From positions 1 to 40,850 of the IMG/VR virus record IMGVR_UViG_3300046328_000609: a DNA stretch of 40,850 nucleotides. One strand, 5' to 3'. The notes beneath the pieces were generated by a model, which was given only the letters and a program-made list of their open reading frames with translations, had not been told where the DNA came from and searched no databases. Positions 3,486 through 30,725 of this stretch are shown here, piece by piece. Position numbers and translations under genes: made by a program. Position 1 is the first letter of the stretch. The number at the start of each line of letters is the position of its first letter. Origin of the DNA: a virus.

Positions 3486-3872
3486 CTAAATTGAGATTAT
3501 ATTATTATAATCAAAAATTGGTAAATTACCAATTTCGCCGACTAATTTAATTACAATATTTTTCATGTCGATATACATTCCCGCAACTTCTACATCAATA
3601 TTTAAGTGTCTAGCTTTGCCAACTTTGCTGTTTTTAGAAACATTTTTGTAAGTTTTGAAGTGTAAATTTTGAGCTAATATGTTTTTAATTTGCGGTTTCA
3701 TTTGTTCAGGAATTTCGGTAAAGCCTTGACTTTTAAGTTCATCTTCAATAGCTTGTACAGTCACATTGAAAGAATGCAGATCGACTGCAACTAACTCATC
3801 CTTACTTTTTCGGAAAATACCGTATCCTTTTCTGTCAGATACGGTACTAAATAGTAATTTATGTTGTAACAT
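3486..3872 (-). CDS. Hypothetical protein
   Basis: This is a 128-residue protein starting MLQHKLLFSTVSDRKGYGIFRKSKDELVAV. Its alternating hydrophobic and polar segments suggest a compact alpha/beta domain. The second half contains a run of Lys residues (KTYKNVSKNSKVGKARHL) that could bind nucleic acid. It follows the 3884-4174 gene by 11 bp and ends just before the terminator at 3387-3411. Family not recognised. Confidence 0.6.
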   Translation of the reverse strand: MLQHKLLFSTVSDRKGYGIFRKSKDELVAVDLHSFNVTVQAIEDELKSQGFTEIPEQMKPQIKNILAQNLHFKTYKNVSKNSKVGKARHLNIDVEVAGMYIDMKNIVIKLVGEIGNLPIFDYNNIISI

Positions 3873-3883
3873 AAATTTTAGGA

Positions 3884-4174
3884 TTAAGCTTCAAAACCAT
3901 TTTCAATTCTTACTAATTTGTCTAGTTCGGCTGAATCAATATCTTTGTTTTTACTCCAAATTTTAAAGTAAGAGTCAACTACATCTGAATTTATATTCAT
4001 AGTTGAAATAAATCCATTTAAAGATTTGATTAGATTTTCGTACTGAAAATCAATCTCAATTTTAGTTTCAAAAGATGGGTCTGAAATTCCATCGATATCT
4101 GTTAAAACTTTAAAGTCTACATTTTGTGAAGAAAGAGAGCTTATTGTGTTGATTGTTGCGAATGTTATTGACAT
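3884..4174 (-). CDS. Hypothetical acidic protein
   Basis: This 96-residue acidic protein begins MSITFATINTISSL and has helical segments around ENLIKSLNGFISTMN and DSYFKIWSKNKD. It is the first gene of a two-gene leftward operon with the promoter at 4227-4255 and a leader of about 46 nt that can form a short TGAGA/TCTCA hairpin. The ATG follows CTTTTAT, as at other starts here. Function unknown. Confidence 0.6.
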   Translation of the reverse strand: MSITFATINTISSLSSQNVDFKVLTDIDGISDPSFETKIEIDFQYENLIKSLNGFISTMNINSDVVDSYFKIWSKNKDIDSAELDKLVRIENGFEA

Positions 4175-4226
4175 ATAAAAGTGTATTAAAAGTGAGATCT
4201 GAAAAGTGTCTCAACTTCTAATAAAG

Positions 4227-4255
4227 AGTATAAAATATTTATTTTGATTTGTCAA
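4227..4255 (-). promoter_or_regulatory. Sigma70 promoter for 4174-3486 operon
   Basis: On the minus strand TTGACA (4255-4250), 17 bp, then TATACT (4232-4227). The -35 box lies inside the 3' end of the gene at 4239-4445. Transcription should start near 4220. Confidence 0.7.
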
Positions 4256-4445
4256 CATATAAATCAAAATAAGATCTAATAACAATCTTTAAAGCCATAA
4301 TTTTAGTTACTTTTTGATCATTTGCAATTTTTTCAATAATATCAAAATCTGATAAATAAATTTGAGTTGATTTTTTACTTTCTGTTGTTTTTTTCCTGCC
4401 AGAATTTAGCCTTTTTCCGCCTCTGTTTTCAGTTTTTTTATTCAT
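4239..4445 (-). CDS. Small basic DNA-binding protein, ribbon-helix-helix type
   Basis: I place the start at the ATG at 4445 (MNKKTENRGGKRLNSGRKK), giving 68 residues; a longer frame from 4493 would begin upstream of the promoter and inside a terminator. The basic GGKRLNSGRKK tail followed by a strand (TQIYLSDFDI) and two helices fits a small ribbon-helix-helix regulator. Its promoter places the transcription start at or next to the ATG, so the mRNA is probably leaderless. Confidence 0.6.
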   Translation of the reverse strand: MNKKTENRGGKRLNSGRKKTTESKKSTQIYLSDFDIIEKIANDQKVTKIMALKIVIRSYFDLYVDKSK

Positions 4446-9560: not shown

Positions 9561-10319
9561 ATGGAAGGTAAAAAATCTCTTAAAGAGAAACTTAAAATAC
9601 AGGACTTCATTTGCAGAGGTTCTGCTACTATTGTAATTGATCTTGTTGAGTCTTATTACATGACCACTTACAGCTTACAAAATAAGCTTAAGTCTGGCAT
9701 TGCAGATAAGATGAAAAGTCAAGGAATTGACATTGAAGCTTTGAAAGAAATTCTTAATCAAGATGAAAACTTAATATCCGAAATATTTAACTCTAATAGT
9801 GAGGTATTTAAGGATATTGATGATGTACCAATGCCACAGGACTATTTAGATGCAAAAGCTCGGATAGAGGCTATTAAACAAAGCTTAATGGATAACCAAA
9901 CTTTATCTGTAGAAAATAGAACTGAACTTAAAAAAGAAATTAAGGACGGGGAAGAAGCTTTGGAAATTATCAAAACAAATCATATTCAAAAATCTTTACA
10001 AGCAAATCCTGAAAAGTTGGCACAAAATCCCAAAGCTTTAAAAGCAATGGTAAATTTAATTTCTACTAAAACAAATGTAGAAAAAATTGAGAATGACCCT
10101 GATAGAGTCTTATTTAAAATTCAAAAAGAGATAGAAAAAGAATTTATCTTTGGTAAAGAAGAGGAAGCTAAAATATTGAATTTAGAACTGCCATCTAAAA
10201 TATTATTTAGCAAATCGGACTTTGTTGAATTACTTGAAGAAATTTCAAAAGAGCAAGAGAATATGATGTCCAGTGATTGCATGGATTTTTTTTTGAACAT
10301 GAGGAGCTTAAAAGATTAG
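9561..10319 (+). CDS. Tail assembly chaperone (gpG-like)
   Basis: This 252-residue, charged, helical protein starts MEGKKSLKEKLKIQD. It sits between the tube protein and the tape measure and ends in overlap with a -1 frame ORF, the hallmark of lambda gpG/gpGT-type tail chaperones, which bind the tape measure during tail assembly and are absent from virions. The C terminus DCMDFFLNMRSLKD is encoded across a T9 tract at 10286-10294. It is longer than typical gpG proteins (about 140). Confidence 0.75.
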   Translation: MEGKKSLKEKLKIQDFICRGSATIVIDLVESYYMTTYSLQNKLKSGIADKMKSQGIDIEALKEILNQDENLISEIFNSNSEVFKDIDDVPMPQDYLDAKARIEAIKQSLMDNQTLSVENRTELKKEIKDGEEALEIIKTNHIQKSLQANPEKLAQNPKALKAMVNLISTKTNVEKIENDPDRVLFKIQKEIEKEFIFGKEEEAKILNLELPSKILFSKSDFVELLEEISKEQENMMSSDCMDFFLNMRSLKD

Positions 10320-10546
10320 CAAGTAAAAGCAAGATGTCTAAAAACTATTTTAGGCTACCGTTTCGTGTTGATACTCATAGAAGATTAGTAAAAATATATG
10401 GCTTAGAATATCTTAAAAGGAAAACAGCTTTAGAACAGTATCAGATATTTATTGCAGACTCAAATGATAACGGTTTTGAATATGAAGTCAATAAAGGGGA
10501 TAAGAAAGAATACAAACGAGACTACCCATATTTAACTAAAAGTTGA
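10277..10546 (+). CDS. Tail assembly chaperone extension (gpT-like), made by -1 frameshift
   Basis: The frame opens at 10277 and lacks a convincing start codon. Fusion at T_TTT_TTT (10286-10292) would join about 243 residues of the upstream protein to FEHEELKRLASKSKM... and end at TGA 10544-10546. The basic, Tyr-rich extension (LPFRVDTHRRLVKIYGLEYLKRKTALEQYQIF) corresponds to the T domain that recruits tail tube protein in lambda. Independent translation from TTG is the less likely option. Confidence 0.7.
   Translation: MHGFFFEHEELKRLASKSKMSKNYFRLPFRVDTHRRLVKIYGLEYLKRKTALEQYQIFIADSNDNGFEYEVNKGDKKEYKRDYPYLTKS
10286..10294 (+). other. -1 frameshift site in tail chaperone
   Basis: Nine T in a row contain T_TTT_TTT in phase with the upstream frame (GAT TTT TTT TTG), giving -1 slippage into the downstream frame. 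The overlap of the two frames is 10277-10319. I see no strong downstream hairpin. Confidence 0.7.
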
Positions 10547-10593: not shown

Positions 10594-10623
10594 GGAGGGC
10601 AGATGTTTTATAAATAATCTGTG
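10594..10623 (+). promoter_or_regulatory. Start-codon hairpin with distant Shine-Dalgarno (tape measure)
   Basis: GGAGGG (10594-10599) precedes a stem CAGAT (10600-10604) and ATCTG (10617-10621), the last G being the first base of the GTG start. The upstream copy at 8198-8226 uses CATAG/CTATG, so the stem is kept while its sequence changes. These are the only clear GGAGG-type sites near gene starts that I found. Confidence 0.6.
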
Positions 10624-12957
10624 GCTAGCCAAGAATTAACTTTTGATCTTGTATTAGAAACCAACAAAGCTGTTGGTGAGATTAAGTCTATGCTTGCTAA
10701 AAGCAATGCTGAGGCTAGTAAAGCAGGGGCAAATAGTGGAAAAAACTTTGGCTCTACGTTTAAAAGTGCTTTAACTACTACCATATCTGGAATAAGTTTT
10801 AATTTTCTAACTAACCAGATTAAAGGATTGTTTGGTTTATTTTCAACTTTTTCAAATAGTAATATGCAACTTGAAGGAGCTATTAAGTCTGTTAATTCAG
10901 CAGAGCTTACCAGAACTTCAATTTTAAAAGATTCTACTAAGTCTATAGAGCAAAAAGCAATGGCAATTGGTCTTGATACAGCAGATATTTATGAGAATAG
11001 TAAAGCTACAAAATCCAATGAGGGAGCTATAAAATCACTAGAAGCACAGATAAAAAGAAAAGAGCGAGCTTTAAAAGATGAGACAAATGCTTTAGAACAA
11101 AATATATCTTCAATAGAATCAAAAAGAGATTTAGAAATACAAAGTTTAAAAAATCAAAAAGGATTTAATACTTTAAGTCAGGAAGATCAAGCTTTAGAAA
11201 AAGATATTACTCAATTAGAACTACAAAGACTACAGGCTATTAAAACTGGCAATGCAGTACAAGTAGCTCAATTAGATACAATTTTGTCAGCGAAGAAACT
11301 GGATCAAGATATTGCACAGAAAAAACTAGATTTAATTGACCAAGAGACAGGAAAAATTGAAGACTTGTACAAGGTTCAAATTATACAACTTAGAAGCCAA
11401 ATGGAGGCAAGTAAGAATAGATTTGATATTGATATTGAACCAGCTAAAAGAAAATTAGAAGACTTACAAGCTACAAGTGTTTCTGTAGGTGGTGGTCAAG
11501 TTTTAAAAAAAGGCATATTGGATCAAATAAACGCAGCGGCTAAAGAAGCCCCAAAAGCTTTGAAACAATCAGACTTTACAGCTTTACAAGATGAGTTATT
11601 TAAAAAATATAAAGGTATTATTCCAAAACAATCTTTAACCTCTGCTATAGCTGATCTGGTTAAAGGTGGGCTGACTGATGTTGGACAGGTTGGAAAAACT
11701 ATTGAAAGGTTTGTAGACATTTCAGCAGCGGGAAAAGTTGAAGCTATAAGCATGGGTTCTGCTGTAGAGCAATTAGGAGAGCAATTTAGAAGTGAAAGGG
11801 CAGCCCTAGGAGAAACTGCAGGTTTAACTGAGGAATATATCTCGCAACTCTTACCAAGAGGTTTAGCTTTATTACAATCAGAAGGGAAACTTAGGGGCAA
11901 AAATGTTGAAAACCTAAATAAAGAGGAAAGGGCTTTAGCTAAACAAATGGGCCTTTTAGACATGACTGCTGATAGGCAAGGTAGGTTTACAGATAAGCTT
12001 GAAAGTGGAATGTTAAGTGCTGATGAGACTAGGGCAGAATTTGAAAAGATGGCTTTAACTTTATCTTTAACCCTTGGGCCTATTCTGCTACAAGTAGCTA
12101 GAGATTTACTTCCAATACTAAAGAATATTACAGATTTTGTGGCTCAGAATCCTGAATTTGTTTCTAACATATTATTAGCAGTAACAGGCTTTGGAGGTTT
12201 GCTTACAGTAGTTTCAGGTTTAATGACAATCTGGACTGTATTTGCACCTTTAATTGCAATGTTAGCTCCTGTATTCACAGTTTTAGCTGGACCTATTGGT
12301 TGGGTAGTAGCAGGTGTGGCTTTACTTACAGCAGGTCTGATTTGGGCTTATGTGAATGTTGAAAGCTTTAGAAACATGGTTAATGATGCTTTTAAAAAGA
12401 TTGTGGGTTATGTCTTGTGGGCTAAAGACAATTGGTTACAAGCCCTTGGTCAGATAATCGGGTTCTTTACCACCTTACCTTTAAAATTAGGCTTATTTAT
12501 AGCACAAGCTGTTATGGGGGTTTATAACTATCTTAGAGACTTTGACTGGTCAAAAGCTTGGGAAGGTATAAAAGATGCAGCGGGTAAAGCTTGGGAAGGT
12601 ATAAAGGCATTCTTTTCAGGAGATAATTTAAAAAAAATGGGTAATGGATTTATGGATTTTATCAAAGGTCTTCTACAAGGTCTTGCAAGTGGAATACCAG
12701 GGGCAGATAAACTAGTAAACCCTTTAATTGATAAATTACCTAGATTTGCTACAGGCGGACAATTTATGGTTGGAGGACAAGGTGGTGTAGATAAGAACTT
12801 AGTTCAATTCATGGCAACTAAGGGCGAAAGAGTAACTATAGAAACACCCTCACAACAAACAGATAACAGACAAATCAATTCAGGTAATACAACTCAATAC
12901 ATTTATCAAGAACAATATAAACAGCCTAGTTTTTCAAACTTAGCTTATAATTATTAG
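10621..12957 (+). CDS. Tape measure protein
   Basis: This is a 778-residue protein from a GTG start (MASQELTFDLVLETNKAV), setting tail length. Residues about 120-290 form long coiled coils (KSLEAQIKRKERALKDETNALEQN...). Residues about 490-570 hold strongly hydrophobic segments (LLAVTGFGGLLTVVSGLMTIW, AGPIGWVVAGVALLTAGLIWAY) expected to enter the host membrane. The C terminus carries a conserved-looking FATGGQFMVGGQGGVD motif seen in many tape measures. Position after the frameshifted chaperones confirms the call. Confidence 0.92.
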   Translation: MASQELTFDLVLETNKAVGEIKSMLAKSNAEASKAGANSGKNFGSTFKSALTTTISGISFNFLTNQIKGLFGLFSTFSNSNMQLEGAIKSVNSAELTRTSILKDSTKSIEQKAMAIGLDTADIYENSKATKSNEGAIKSLEAQIKRKERALKDETNALEQNISSIESKRDLEIQSLKNQKGFNTLSQEDQALEKDITQLELQRLQAIKTGNAVQVAQLDTILSAKKLDQDIAQKKLDLIDQETGKIEDLYKVQIIQLRSQMEASKNRFDIDIEPAKRKLEDLQATSVSVGGGQVLKKGILDQINAAAKEAPKALKQSDFTALQDELFKKYKGIIPKQSLTSAIADLVKGGLTDVGQVGKTIERFVDISAAGKVEAISMGSAVEQLGEQFRSERAALGETAGLTEEYISQLLPRGLALLQSEGKLRGKNVENLNKEERALAKQMGLLDMTADRQGRFTDKLESGMLSADETRAEFEKMALTLSLTLGPILLQVARDLLPILKNITDFVAQNPEFVSNILLAVTGFGGLLTVVSGLMTIWTVFAPLIAMLAPVFTVLAGPIGWVVAGVALLTAGLIWAYVNVESFRNMVNDAFKKIVGYVLWAKDNWLQALGQIIGFFTTLPLKLGLFIAQAVMGVYNYLRDFDWSKAWEGIKDAAGKAWEGIKAFFSGDNLKKMGNGFMDFIKGLLQGLASGIPGADKLVNPLIDKLPRFATGGQFMVGGQGGVDKNLVQFMATKGERVTIETPSQQTDNRQINSGNTTQYIYQEQYKQPSFSNLAYNY

Positions 12958-24832: not shown

Positions 24833-26305
24833 GTGATCGATACATTAACACCTGAGCAAAAAGCACAAATTTCTGTGTGCAGAGAAAAATGGCTTAATTT
24901 AATTTTTGGAAAACAACCCAAAACTTTAAATTTAAAACAAGTTATTAAAGCAAATAACTCTCTTTATAAGTTTTGTAATTTAGCAAAACCGATAACTTTA
25001 ATAGCTAAAAACCCTTTAGAAGCTCAAATAATGGCTAATATAGTTCAGGCTCAAGTTGATGCTCAAGTTCGAGATCAAGTTCGAGATCAAGTTTGGGCTC
25101 AAGTTTGGGCTCAAGTTCAGGAACAAGTTGATGCTCAAGTTGGGGCTCAAGTTCAGGAACAAGTTGATGCTCAAGTTTGGGCTCAAGTTAGGAATCAAGT
25201 TGATGCTCAAGTTCGAGATCAAGTTCGAGATCAAGTTTGGGCTCAAGTTGGGAATCAAGTTGGGAATCAAGTTGGGGATCAAGTTTGGGCTCAAGTTGGG
25301 AATCAAGTTGGGAATCAAGTTTGGGCTCAAGTTGGGGATCAAGTTGGGGATCAAGTTCAGGCTCAAGTTGGGAATCAAGTTCGAGATCAAGTTCGAGATC
25401 AAGTTCGAGATCAAGTTCGAGATCAAGTTGGGGCTCAAGTTTGGGCTCAAGTTGGGGCTCAAGTTCTGGCTCAAGTTGGGGATCAAGTTGATGCTCAAGT
25501 TCGGGCTCAAGTTCAGAACATAAAATATTTCTTTTTTTCAAACTATGGCAGTTATTTAGATTTTGGTTGGGTCAGCTTTTATGATTTTTTTATTAAAAAT
25601 TTTGACTTTTTCTCTGAAAAATTAAAAAAGAAATTTGATTTAGTCAAAAATTACTTAAAGACAGGAATTTTCATGTCGATACAATTAAAAGGTTTTTGTA
25701 TTGTTGTTCCGATTCCAGATAAAATTAAGCGTAATTCTAATAACGATTTGCATTGCGAGGATGGACACGCCATACAATTCTCCGATGGTTATGGTCTATA
25801 CGCACTAGACGGTATCCGATTTGACCGAGCTGGCAATGAGGAATTGTATTGGAAAATAGTAAAACATGAACTTACTTTACCAGAAATATTAGCAATTGAA
25901 GATATTGACCAGAGAGCAATCGCACTTAAGTACTGTAATGCAGAGTCTATTATATCTGATTTAGTGGCAAATAATCAAGCCACTTTAATTGATGAAGCTA
26001 CGAAGCAAGCTAGCTATCTTGAGCATAACTCAGTAGAATTTATTGGTGGAATTGCTCAAATTAACTTTACAATTGAAAAACTAAAAATGGTGGAAAAAAC
26101 GCTTTTATACAAATTGTATAAAGTAAATATTCCTAAAATTTTAGAAGACGAATATATGCTTGTATATCCACACGCTTCAATTGATGAATTAAGTTATTGG
26201 AAAGGGGTAGACCCTACAATTGCGAATAAAGGTAGCTTAAATGCTATAGCACAATCACACAATATGACAGTTGACGAGTATTTACTTGCGACTTCACAAA
26301 GTTAA
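24833..26305 (+). CDS. DUF6745-like tetrapeptide-repeat protein
   Basis: This is a 490-residue protein from a GTG start (MIDTLTPEQKAQISVCREKW). Residues 72-227 are 39 consecutive units of the form x-x-Q-V, with first residue D, R, W, G, Q or L and second A, D, N or E. The C-terminal part has FDFGWVSFYDFF, a FCIVVPIPDKI strand, GHAIQFSDGYGLYALDGIRF and a helical tail. This layout, N-terminal TPEQ helix, xxQL/xxQV repeats and then an AIQFxDGYxLYxLxGVR block, is what I recall of DUF6745 proteins, common in cyanobacteria and scattered elsewhere. Function unknown. The next gene is its usual companion. Confidence 0.7.
   Translation: MIDTLTPEQKAQISVCREKWLNLIFGKQPKTLNLKQVIKANNSLYKFCNLAKPITLIAKNPLEAQIMANIVQAQVDAQVRDQVRDQVWAQVWAQVQEQVDAQVGAQVQEQVDAQVWAQVRNQVDAQVRDQVRDQVWAQVGNQVGNQVGDQVWAQVGNQVGNQVWAQVGDQVGDQVQAQVGNQVRDQVRDQVRDQVRDQVGAQVWAQVGAQVLAQVGDQVDAQVRAQVQNIKYFFFSNYGSYLDFGWVSFYDFFIKNFDFFSEKLKKKFDLVKNYLKTGIFMSIQLKGFCIVVPIPDKIKRNSNNDLHCEDGHAIQFSDGYGLYALDGIRFDRAGNEELYWKIVKHELTLPEILAIEDIDQRAIALKYCNAESIISDLVANNQATLIDEATKQASYLEHNSVEFIGGIAQINFTIEKLKMVEKTLLYKLYKVNIPKILEDEYMLVYPHASIDELSYWKGVDPTIANKGSLNAIAQSHNMTVDEYLLATSQS
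25046..25513 (+). repeat. 39 tandem 12-bp units inside the repeat protein gene
   Basis: Each unit reads NNN-RNN-CAA-GTT, with CAAGTT constant and six variable bases. Because the period is a multiple of three and lacks stops, several other frames are also open here; these are artefacts. The arrangement allows gain and loss of units by recombination or slippage, and unit types (for example CGAGAT, TGGGCT, GGGAAT) are shuffled rather than simply repeated. Confidence 0.9.
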
Positions 26306-26686: not shown

Positions 26687-26766
26687 GTCTCTTACATATC
26701 CAATTTATACACAATATCAGAGGTAAAAATATCTACTTAATACCTAAATTTGTGTATGTAAGAGAC
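26687..26766 (+). promoter_or_regulatory. Long hairpin before the frameshift gene
   Basis: GTCTCTTACATA (26687-26698) pairs perfectly with TATGTAAGAGAC (26755-26766). Inside, AGGTA and TACCT can pair again with partial CAATTT/AAATTTG stacking between. A 13-codon ORF starting at 26685 runs through the left arm. The element lies between the GHAH gene and the 26802 gene and could act as processing site, attenuator or leader switch; no T run follows the stem. Confidence 0.6.
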
Positions 26767-26801: not shown

Positions 26802-27089
26802 ATGTCCCAAAAAACAAACAACTTAACAAAAACAGTAACAATCATTGTAACCTTTCTTATCTTAATTTCAATGCTTTATCAATCTACACAGAAGCAACAA
26901 GGACAAATTGCAGAGGCTCACACATCTACACCAGCCGAACTTGCAGAACAAGCCAAAACTGCTAAAAATAAAGCTTTAAAGCAAGCTGAGGCAGAGGATA
27001 ATAAAGCAAAAGCTTATGAACTTTTGAATAAAGCTCAAGAAATTGAAACAAGTTTATCTAGTTCAGAAAGCCCAAAAGTCTCAAGGTAG
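26802..27089 (+). CDS. Membrane anchor, frame-0 product of a -1 frameshift gene
   Basis: This is a 95-residue product with one membrane helix near residues 10-28 (VTIIVTFLILISMLYQST) and an Ala/Lys/Glu-rich helical linker (AELAEQAKTAKNKALKQAEAEDN). The TAG at 27087-27089 lies inside a hairpin that follows a slippery heptamer. Slippage at 27071-27077 would extend it into the lysozyme-like frame, giving about 295 residues with an N-terminal anchor. Alone, it could be a small holin- or spanin-like membrane protein. Confidence 0.7.
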   Translation: MSQKTNNLTKTVTIIVTFLILISMLYQSTQKQQGQIAEAHTSTPAELAEQAKTAKNKALKQAEAEDNKAKAYELLNKAQEIETSLSSSESPKVSR

Positions 27090-27111
27090 ACACTATAGAG
27101 AGTGATCTACC
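27071..27111 (+). other. Programmed -1 ribosomal frameshift signal
   Basis: C_CCA_AAA (27071-27077) is in phase with the 26802 frame and matches X_XXY_YYZ. A 7-nt spacer (27078-27084) leads to a hairpin: GGTAGA-CACT (27085-27094) pairs with AGTG (27101-27104), a bulged A (27105) and TCTACC (27106-27111), ten pairs with a 6-nt loop. The -1 frame is open only from 27062, so the site falls in the 28-nt overlap window. All three parts are where a functional signal needs them. Confidence 0.8.
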
Positions 27112-27166
27112 TAAACCAGAGCAACTTAAACCTGTAATTATTCAACAAGTAAAAGCTCAAGTAAAT

Positions 27167-27688
27167 ATGCCAGAAAATAATATATCCACAAAACTTTTTA
27201 AATTAAACAGTGGAAAAAAAGTGACTGGCAAATACTTACTTGATATAGTTAAAAGTAACGCTAACGGTTTAAAACTTTGGCAAGCATTCTTTGATAAATA
27301 CGGTCAAGTTGTAGCAGACACCGCTGGCATTTCATTGTTTTACGAGAATGGAACTATGAAAGTTGATTCGGTTGGAGTCTGTAGCAAAAAGTATATGATA
27401 GGCGGAGACTACCGCAATTGTAATTATGCAGACCTTAATAGTGCTGGTTTTGACGCAGGATTAAAACAAATCAACACTTTCTATCAACGTAAACGAATCG
27501 AAAAACTATCTGGTATCAAATGTACAATTGGCAATTCAAGAGACCGAAAAGACCCTTGTACAGCTCAGTATATAGCTTGGCTAATCAACCCAGATAACAA
27601 TATTGCTATAGCTCTTGATATTTATTCAGAACAAGGCTTTTGTCCTTGGTACGGTGCTAGACGAAGTGGTATTGTTACTAAATGTTAA
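27167..27688 (+). CDS. Lysozyme/transglycosylase-like domain (frameshift-fused)
   Basis: This is 173 residues from the ATG at 27167; the same frame opens at 27062 and is reached by frameshift from 26802. The sequence GFDAGLKQINTFYQ and the later INPDNNIAIALDIYSEQGFCPWYGAR match the GLxQIN and DPxxNI...GFxPW signatures of lysozyme-like SLT domains. Six Cys suggest disulfides outside the cytoplasm, which fits delivery by the anchor. The catalytic Glu is not certain; Glu in YENGT is one candidate. Internal initiation could also give a soluble form. Confidence 0.65.
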   Translation: MPENNISTKLFKLNSGKKVTGKYLLDIVKSNANGLKLWQAFFDKYGQVVADTAGISLFYENGTMKVDSVGVCSKKYMIGGDYRNCNYADLNSAGFDAGLKQINTFYQRKRIEKLSGIKCTIGNSRDRKDPCTAQYIAWLINPDNNIAIALDIYSEQGFCPWYGARRSGIVTKC

Positions 27689-28917: not shown

Positions 28918-29163
28918 ATGTCTGACATCTACAATCATTGTCTAGCAGAGTATAAAAAATCTTTTGGTAAAGATTTAGAAAATAATAAATTCACGCACAA
29001 AGGGATTATCTTTATTTTGGAGCTTGAGGGATATTTTCAAGCTCCAGGATACAGACTTGAGCCTAAGTTCTTTGGAAAATGGAAGTTGACTATACATGAT
29101 CTTGAGGACAAGACGTATACTAATTTACCTAGTATAAATGTGGCTTTATTGATGATTGATTAA
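28918..29163 (+). CDS. Hypothetical protein
   Basis: This 81-residue protein (MSDIYNHCLAEYKKSFGKD) has a helical N terminus and beta-rich middle (GIIFILELEGYFQAPGYRLEP, WKLTIHDL). It is the last gene of the rightward accessory operon; its stop overlaps that of the opposite gene (shared TTAA at 29160-29163). Function unknown. Confidence 0.55.
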   Translation: MSDIYNHCLAEYKKSFGKDLENNKFTHKGIIFILELEGYFQAPGYRLEPKFFGKWKLTIHDLEDKTYTNLPSINVALLMID

Positions 29164-29528
29164 GGTTTTTTCATTGATTGACTTAAAAGTTTTTCTTTCA
29201 ACCTTTGGTCTTTTGAAAGACCTGAGATAATACCTTTCAGCTCTCCGTTCTCTTCTCTTAATTGTATAATTTGATTTTGCAAACCCTTATTTTCAATTCT
29301 TAGTTCTTCAATCTCTTTTTTATTTTCTTCATGCTGAAACGTACTCTCTTTTTTATCATCTTCTCTCAATTTTTCTAGGCTTGTAACTTTATCGATTAAA
29401 CTCTTAATCTGCTCTGTTTTATCCTCTTTTTTAGAAGCAAAATACATATCACTAAGCTTGATTACTAATAATGCAAAGATACCAAAAGTACTTACTGTCC
29501 CTGAGCTTATAAGTGTTGTTAAGTCCAT
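29160..29528 (-). CDS. Membrane-anchored coiled-coil protein, spanin- or holin-like
   Basis: This 122-residue protein has an N-terminal membrane helix (GTVSTFGIFALLVIKLSDMY) and then about 85 residues of coiled coil (KSLIDKVTSLEKLREDDKKES...IEELRIENKGLQNQ). That layout matches inner-membrane spanins (i-spanin, Rz-like), and also some bacteriocin-like holins. It is the last gene of the leftward lysis cluster. Its length and the coiled coil favour an i-spanin. Confidence 0.6.
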   Translation of the reverse strand: MDLTTLISSGTVSTFGIFALLVIKLSDMYFASKKEDKTEQIKSLIDKVTSLEKLREDDKKESTFQHEENKKEIEELRIENKGLQNQIIQLREENGELKGIISGLSKDQRLKEKLLSQSMKKP

Positions 29529-29529
29529 A

Positions 29530-29730
29530 TTATTTTGATTTAAGTTCTTTTAAAATTTGATTGTTTGATTTGTTAATTTTATTCAGTTCTATAATTAAAT
29601 GTCTCAGACTTGGCTGTTCTGGAACTTTTACATATTTAACATGGAACAATAAAATACCTAAAAATACAAAATATAAAAATATTGGCACATCCAATTTATC
29701 AGTTATATTGTGAATGAAAAAGTTAGGCAT
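29530..29730 (-). CDS. Small membrane protein in lysis cluster
   Basis: This 66-residue protein has one membrane helix (VPIFLYFVFLGILLFHVKY) after a short polar N terminus and a basic, helical C-terminal tail (LIIELNKINKSNNQILKELK). It overlaps the preceding gene by 8 bp. Clustered between a holin candidate and a spanin candidate, it may be a holin partner or antiholin. Confidence 0.55.
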   Translation of the reverse strand: MPNFFIHNITDKLDVPIFLYFVFLGILLFHVKYVKVPEQPSLRHLIIELNKINKSNNQILKELKSK

Positions 29731-30022
29731 CTATATTTTTTTGAATTAAAGTTGATTCTGATTCGCTTTCTTTTTTTTGTCTATAAATTCCGACAAAGAT
29801 ATATAGAGTTAAAAAAATTGGGAAGTTTATCAAAAGTGTTTTAACAAAAGGTCTAGCCCCTGAATAGTAATATTCTGCTAATAATCCATTTACAATCCAT
29901 GCGATTGATAAATTAACATTCAAAGCCCTCCAAAGCCAATCTACAAAATATTTAAAGGTTGTTTTTGGCTCTCTTACCAATTCAACAACGTCTTTAATAA
30001 ATTCTTGTAGTTTCTCTTTCAT
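29723..30022 (-). CDS. Putative holin
   Basis: This 99-residue protein contains two candidate membrane segments, LSIAWIVNGLLAEYYYSG and FVKTLLINFPIFLTLYIFVG, and ends in a charged tail (RQKKESESES). It starts 1 bp after the M23 peptidase gene, the usual partner of a holin that releases it to the wall. Class II holin-like topology is plausible; direct similarity is not visible. Confidence 0.6.
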   Translation of the reverse strand: MKEKLQEFIKDVVELVREPKTTFKYFVDWLWRALNVNLSIAWIVNGLLAEYYYSGARPFVKTLLINFPIFLTLYIFVGIYRQKKESESESTLIQKNIDA

Positions 30023-30023
30023 A

Positions 30024-30725
30024 TTACTTGTTTTTAAGATTTTTTATCTCAGCTTTTAAATTAGTATTTTCTTTTTGTAATCTTTCAATATCATCAAGTC
30101 TATCGCAATAACACTGTGTGAAATAGTTGGTAATCAGATAAAACGAACTATCTGCACAATCTCGTATCGATTGAGGAAGTCTCATGTAACCAGGTTGTAG
30201 TTTTGCATTTCCAGCCTGTACTTGAAAAAGTGTCAAAGCTTGTTGACCAGCATTCTGACCAGCTTTATTTACGATTGTGGGAATATCTGAATTGTTGAAA
30301 GATTGCACTTGAGGCATATTGTTATTCCAATCGTTTATAATATCTTTATAGTCATAAAAGCCACTAGCATTTCCGTTTTTAGAGATCGCTAAGTGAAGAT
30401 GCGCACCTGTACTTTGACCAGCTCCCCACTCACCTTTTACCCCACCTGATAATCCAATTTGCTGTCCTTTTTCAACTCTTTGACCTTTTTTGACATCAAG
30501 TCTACTCAAGTGAATATATCGGGCTAAATAGTCGTTGTCAAGTTTAATGTCTATATATGCACCTCCGAACTGATCTAAGCCTGAGAATGTAACCTTACCA
30601 CCAAGGATAGCAAACAAAGGCGTACCTTTAGGGCAACCCCAGTCAATACCTGTATGATTTGGTCTGTTGGCAGGTTTAAAACCTGAGGTTATTTTGTAAT
30701 TGCCAGGGAAGGGTTTTGTGTACAT
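30024..30725 (-). CDS. M23-family peptidase, endolysin
   Basis: This is a 233-residue protein. The LytM/M23 domain fills residues 1-125 with metal ligands His24 and Asp28 (NHTGIDWG), catalytic His72 (YIHLSRL), and His109-x-His111 (GAHLHL). It should cut peptide cross-links in the cell wall. There is no signal peptide, so release needs the holin next door. The C terminus has a helical region and a short coiled coil (DIERLQKENTNLKAEIKNL) that may form oligomers or bind the wall. Confidence 0.85.
   Translation of the reverse strand: MYTKPFPGNYKITSGFKPANRPNHTGIDWGCPKGTPLFAILGGKVTFSGLDQFGGAYIDIKLDNDYLARYIHLSRLDVKKGQRVEKGQQIGLSGGVKGEWGAGQSTGAHLHLAISKNGNASGFYDYKDIINDWNNNMPQVQSFNNSDIPTIVNKAGQNAGQQALTLFQVQAGNAKLQPGYMRLPQSIRDCADSSFYLITNYFTQCYCDRLDDIERLQKENTNLKAEIKNLKNK

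Follow-up and report, generated by a model that had tools for sequence, protein, structure and literature searches.

Many divergent phages, mostly linked to Saccharibacteria, which have hardly been cultivated, were found to carry a muralytic enzyme that is separated from its own membrane anchor by a predicted −1 frameshift. The arrangement is conserved and unusual, with a known mechanism put to a new use. The finding is the family as a whole; the stretch of DNA analysed here (IMG/VR virus record IMGVR_UViG_3300046328_000609; 40,850 bases, 32% G+C; hereafter, the window) is one divergent member of it. Based on sequence comparison, −1 frameshifting in this gene very probably gives rise to two products: a short membrane protein in abundance and, as a minority, a transmembrane (TM)-anchored lysozyme that faces outward. 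This suggests that the amount of a dangerous enzyme is regulated through translation.

The features of the window locus are listed in Table 1. The heptamer is indeed in phase with the upstream open reading frame (ORF), as the original prediction had it, with its codons CCA and AAA at 27072 and 27075, and the overlap of the two frames has the 28 nt that were claimed for it. The −1 frame has a TAG at 27059–27061, is open from 27062 on, and ends with a TAA at 27686–27688. The stem described in the original prediction was also recovered, but not its dimensions: RNAfold gave 11 bp and a 6-nt spacer where 10 bp and 7 nt had been claimed, an outer A-U pair having been omitted. The 95-aa protein encoded upstream has a basic N-terminus, one strong TM segment at about residues 8–26 (hydropathy 1.97), and a helical tail rich in Gln, Ala and Lys, in agreement with the membrane helix and helical linker proposed for it. 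The junction of the putative fusion reads ...SSSESPK^SLKVDT..., and the linker that follows (27078–27166) contains no ATG, GTG or TTG in the −1 frame upstream of 27167.

Table 1 Features of the frameshift locus in the window
Feature	Position	Strand	Details
0-frame ORF, one-TM protein, 95 aa	26802..27089	+	ATG 26802, stop TAG 27087-27089
Overlap of the 0 frame with the −1 frame, 28 nt	27062..27089	+	
Slippery heptamer C_CCA_AAA	27071..27077	+	In phase with the 26802 ORF
Predicted stimulatory hairpin	27084..27112	+	11 bp with a single bulge; spaced 6 nt from the heptamer
Fusion linker, −1 frame, SLKVDTIESDLPKPEQ...	27077..27166	+	Without start codon; coding-type codon usage
Lysozyme-like domain (SLT/c-type lysozyme superfamily), −1 frame	27167..27688	+	
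Putative fusion gene	26802..27688	+	92 + 203 = 295 aa, signal-anchored lysozyme

We then asked how much of this could arise by chance. CCCAAAA conforms to the X_XXY_YYZ pattern of slippery heptamers, and the hairpin, at 6 nt, lies within the 5–9 nt downstream at which a stimulatory structure is looked for. In an overlap this short, an in-phase X_XXY_YYZ has a probability of about 9% by chance alone in the window genome. The hairpin had a z-score of −2.96, with 2 of 200 shuffles equally good, and an Rfam search gave no match. The heptamer alone is weak evidence, and it is the relatives that carry the case. Within the window, the linker gave a stronger signal. Between the 0-frame stop region and ATG 27167 lie 29 codons of the −1 frame that contain no stops and scored +6.97 log units under a codon model, which puts the linker (27078–27166) on par with real genes. 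When the phage’s own genes were read in each of the wrong frames, none of 9274 windows of this length scored as high; of 4430 intergenic windows, 64 (1.4%) did. Since the linker codes in the −1 frame, the frame change must lie near 27063–27087, the range in which the same model placed the best-fitting switch point.

Searching for relatives with the window itself was of little avail: no close kin by lysozyme, terminase or capsid was confirmed in IMG/VR, and tblastn with the window lysozyme in phage records gave no match. A degenerate DNA pattern for the C-terminal motif of the lysozyme yielded 54 loci from IMG/VR, most of which encode a signal or TM segment, a linker and a lysozyme within one ORF. 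Two near-identical contigs from separate metagenome assemblies (L023 and L049) carried an identical split, as in the window, and sequence searches from these led to L068, L069 and the TM7 phage MG269973 (L070), and then to L071–L088. A first scan of genome contigs with alignment A2 confirmed nothing. Saccharibacteria genomes were reached via a TM7 16S probe, and the 393 genomes of this class provided four more splits (L207, L208, L209 and L216), two of them in clear prophages. Overall, we obtained 18 distinct split loci including the window, the other 17 coming from 12 IMG/VR phages, MG269973 and the four Saccharibacteria genomes. Each has a one-TM ORF of ~50–100 aa and, after it, a linker that is charged or rich in Pro; the −1 frame encodes a lysozyme domain, with divergence among these domains down to 36% identity (alignment A3). 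A last viral scan for the window’s NPDNNIA motif recovered only L015, which is single-frame, and a search of 380 Patescibacteria genomes with the window lysozyme recovered one weak match, also single-frame.

Single-frame homologues were found in Saccharibacteria (L211–L221), in other Patescibacteria (L245–L259) and in phages (L067 and L082). As single-ORF TM-lysozyme relatives exist, the fusion is the enzyme; judging from these sequences, the uninterrupted TM-lysozyme is an architecture that really exists, with the split as a derived or alternative route to it. The fact that such single-ORF genes are common in relatives could also mean that a sequencing or assembly error, or gene decay, has split what was one TM-lysozyme ORF, and an uninterrupted frame in relatives had been named in advance as a sign of error. 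However, the single-ORF relatives turned out to be different genes, and 18 distinct loci retain the split, in the same direction and at the same place, which refutes error or decay for the relatives. Moreover, L023 and L049 are split identically in two assemblies, and the downstream structures are conserved. We thus give an artefact or a decayed gene hardly any credence. The split also explains how a lysozyme is missed by annotation in such phages, for example in MG269973. In this record (MG269973.1, L070, DolZOral124_53_65; locus at 3687–4333), the annotation “lysozyme-like domain protein” is attached to the TM ORF, CQ476_31; the actual lysozyme domain, in the −1 frame at 3911–4333, is without annotation.

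The slip sites of the 18 loci follow a common scheme. In 16 of them, NNA_AAA occurs in phase no more than 10 codons from the stop, compared with 13.7% of the ends of 278 other ORFs from these phages (p ~2e-12, a value that, like the other p-values given here, overstates independence, as the motif was set after the loci had been viewed and not all of them are unrelated). The A-site codon is the Lys codon AAA in 17 of the 18, and the P-site codon varies among TTA, TCA, CCA, GTA and AAA. L208 has T_TTA_AAT and T_TTA_AAC in place of NNA_AAA, and the sole NNA_AAA of L209 lies 39 nt upstream of the stop. A perfect X_XXY_YYZ is found in the window, L071, L077, L078, L087 and others. Loss of the heptamer and the hairpin in homologues that keep both ORFs had been put forward as a way to refute the original prediction. 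What the relatives retain is an in-phase slip site, in all loci, and a downstream structure at 4–8 nt, in 13 of the 18; the heptamer itself is not strictly kept.

The type of stimulator differs as well. The hairpin that had been proposed holds for the window, but many relatives have an H-type pseudoknot instead, located 5–6 nt 3′ of the slip site in nine of them (L071–L076, L080, L084 and L207). Its stem 1 comprises 6–8 bp, its stem 2 5–7 bp, and its third loop 10–13 nt. Both stems vary in sequence and retain their pairing, with compensatory changes at most pairs. In L077, L079 and L216, nested stems are found at 4–6 nt, and in five loci (L070, L078, L087, L208 and L209) there was no stem at the tested distance. 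The combined shuffle p-value for downstream structure over the 18 loci was 1.5e-12. No Shine–Dalgarno-like stimulator 5′ of the slip site was consistent across loci. Taken together, the split relatives offer a collection of natural candidate signals for frameshifting in bacteria. Twelve of the 17 split relatives further carry GxxG or GxxxG in or near the TM segment (among L071–L084, L087, L070 and L207–L209), which suggests that the short and long forms may pack together; the window has neither the pseudoknot nor either of these TM motifs.

Alternatively, without any frameshifting, the locus could encode a small TM protein and, separately, a lysozyme-like protein started at ATG 27167. This ATG does exist, and it opens a 173-aa ORF in the lysozyme frame; its product, however, would be an unexported lysozyme domain without an export signal, and the 29 codons 5′ of it code in the same frame. 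The relatives also speak against independent initiation. Most split loci lack an ATG in the stretch from the 0-frame stop to the catalytic domain, L079 being an exception. In six of them (L073, L074, L075, L084, L207 and L209), the lysozyme frame offers neither ATG nor GTG nor TTG ahead of that domain, which excludes independent initiation at a usual codon in these loci. Separate proteins would also leave slip sites and pseudoknots with no reason to persist, and we regard this alternative as very unlikely. The downstream frame codes from the slip site without a start of its own, according to both the codon model and the six startless relatives, and site and split are conserved across divergent homologues. 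The 18 conserved splits and the coding linker support the −1 frameshift of the original prediction, and with it a short membrane protein made alongside an anchored muralytic fusion.

The enzymatic domain was assigned through the relatives. All 15 aligned relatives (A3) matched Pfam SLT_3 and 14 of the 15 matched SLT, the first A3 member scoring 57.7 bits against SLT_3 (cut-off 27), and the relatives’ profile matched EtgA and solved c-type lysozymes in PDB. The window protein did not reach the curated cut-off of SLT_3 (PF18896) and had no Pfam match; its lysozyme domain fell under every Pfam and PHROG threshold, and a sequence search of PDB likewise returned no family. Its motifs are GLKQIN, NPDNNIAIALDIY, GFCPW and six Cys, so that the GLxQIN-like and GFxPW-like signatures and the cysteine count reported earlier are all found, and they stand in the motif order of the lysozyme superfamily (catalytic Glu, GLxQIN, PxxN..A..IY..G.xPW). 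Compared with profile A3, the domain obtained an hhalign probability of 76% (E 2.4e-5), and it shares 65% identity over 26 aa with the single-frame L015. Glu60 of the segment 27167–27688 (codon 27344–27346, within FYENG) is likely the catalytic residue, a pairing made by eye against the catalytic Glu of L015, with MAFFT placing Glu60 elsewhere. An insert lies between this probable catalytic residue and GLKQIN. An AlphaFold model of the domain had a pLDDT of 55.7, and the top Foldseek rows were SLT and lysozyme folds with E-values of 0.7 or worse; AlphaFold from the single sequence of the −1 frame gave a pLDDT of 39. The window domain thus appears to be a distant member of the relatives’ lysozyme family, with an assignment weaker than theirs.

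In the mechanism we propose, ribosomes would translate the 26802 ORF, and most would stop at TAG 27087 and release the 95-aa membrane protein. A minority, held by the stem at 27084–27112, would slip from CCA_AAA to CCC_AAA and read on to 27688. The slipped product of 295 aa would have its N-terminus inside, one TM segment, the linker, and the lysozyme domain outside. Frameshifting would thereby cap the enzyme dose and keep the two products in a fixed ratio, and the abundant short protein would act as a membrane partner or diluent. The slipping and its rate, as well as the membrane topology (from the positive-inside rule alone) and the use of the product, are what we infer from the locus and its relatives.

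In tailed phages, tail chaperones are the main known case of frameshifting. Like lambda G/GT, the present genes have a slippery site shortly before the first ORF ends, a short overlap, a C-terminal −1 extension and a shared N-terminus. Unlike G/GT, they have a predicted membrane-anchored muralytic product and lie far from the tape-measure gene, and many of the relatives have an H-type pseudoknot 5–6 nt downstream. In SAR (signal-anchor-release) endolysins, a TM signal anchor at the N-terminus precedes a lysozyme-type domain that is exported. The predicted fusion similarly has an N-terminal signal anchor before its muralytic domain (TM residues 8–26 of the fusion), but its anchor and enzyme are in different frames with a long linker between them. 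It shares the order of TM, linker and lysozyme with the single-ORF TM-SLT_3 lysozymes (L067, L082, L211–L221 and L245–L259), which have no frameshift and in which the full enzyme is always made.

As for published cases, the ratio of products is known to matter for the lambda G/GT tail chaperone (PMC5009743). The MS2 lysis gene is tied to frameshifting or termination in the coat gene (PMC10885494, PMC5009743). Its expression, like that proposed here, is coupled to a rare translational event, but MS2 is an RNA phage that uses termination-reinitiation and makes a separate protein, with no fusion and no enzyme. For Streptomyces cluster BI phages, GeneMarkS predicted frameshifts close to endolysin and holin genes (PMC9671017); the genes concerned are neighbours of lysis genes, and the description given of them is not that of an anchor-enzyme split. 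PRFect takes up tail chaperones as well as lysis in MS2, and endolysin, lysozyme and holin are unmentioned in the accessible part of a large recoding review. Outside subscription journals, the literature searched yielded no account of frameshifting that links a muralytic enzyme to its own anchor.

The most likely use of the product is as a membrane-tethered muralytic enzyme, either an endolysin or an auxiliary lysin, and the gene is a candidate lysis gene for Patescibacteria viruses. We put the chance that the enzyme serves lysis at even or slightly better, with the strongest case in the Saccharibacteria phages. No other muralytic Pfam domain was found among the 41 proteins (of at least 80 aa) of the complete circular TM7 phage MG269973, nor among the proteins of at least 80 aa in G397. 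As this is the sole recognisable muralytic gene in these two genomes, an endolysin role is likely in both.

The main rival concerns the use and not the frameshift: the frameshifted lysozyme would serve local wall opening or phage exclusion, in an early or lysogenic role, rather than lysis. In keeping with this, the gene adjoins replication and recombination genes, and an M23 peptidase (Pfam) is encoded by another gene of the window phage. In two Saccharibacteria prophages (L262 and L263), moreover, the split gene lies at the prophage end next to host genes, which by eye encode RNase HII-like and L19-like proteins in L262 and RecG-like and RpoC-like proteins in L263. Because host genes adjoin these prophages, the split gene, the phage replication genes and the terminase are inside Saccharibacteria chromosomes. 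Wall opening or exclusion fits less well with MG269973 and G397 and their lack of any other muralytic Pfam domain. It also fits less well with the position of the gene in G397 and L265, where, as in G402, it follows a NinG-type gene; lambda has its lysis genes near that position. We consider such a role plausible, though not the one to be expected. Given its own M23 peptidase, the window phage may achieve lysis independently of the 26802–27688 gene.

A more specific proposal, which we advance tentatively, is that a holin-like or partner TM protein, as the majority product, assembles with the minority TM-anchored lysozyme, so that translation would set the ratio of hole-former to enzyme and the timing of lysis in Patescibacteria phages. 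As part of this proposal, and with the same reserve, the split loci could represent a conserved class of lysis or wall-opening genes with pseudoknot-stimulated −1 frameshifting.

Several further observations were made around the locus. Homologues of two genes just 5′ of the window gene neighbour each other in G402 as well, in unchanged order and 5′ of the split gene. At 24833–26305, the window encodes a protein with a long (A/D/N)QV-type repeat, along which several frames are open on both strands; its homologue likewise lies 5′ of the split gene in G402. The M23 peptidase, on the minus strand at 29160–30725, is located beside three small TM ORFs and is probably part of a separate lysis cassette. 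Just 5′ of the TM ORF is a 20-nt inverted repeat (26687–26766; GTCTCTTACATA.../...TATGTAAGAGAC), with arms that are 85% complementary and 40 nt apart; it has no further copies and no Rfam match. Finally, a tail-chaperone (G/GT) reading of 26802–27688 was considered and rejected: the tape measure is encoded at 10621–12957, and the tail-chaperone position 5′ of it is taken by 9561–10319 and 10277–10546, the second of which is in the −1 frame. The overlap of these two ORFs contains a run of nine T (10286–10294, GAT_TTT_TTT_TTG), likely a second frameshift site of this phage.
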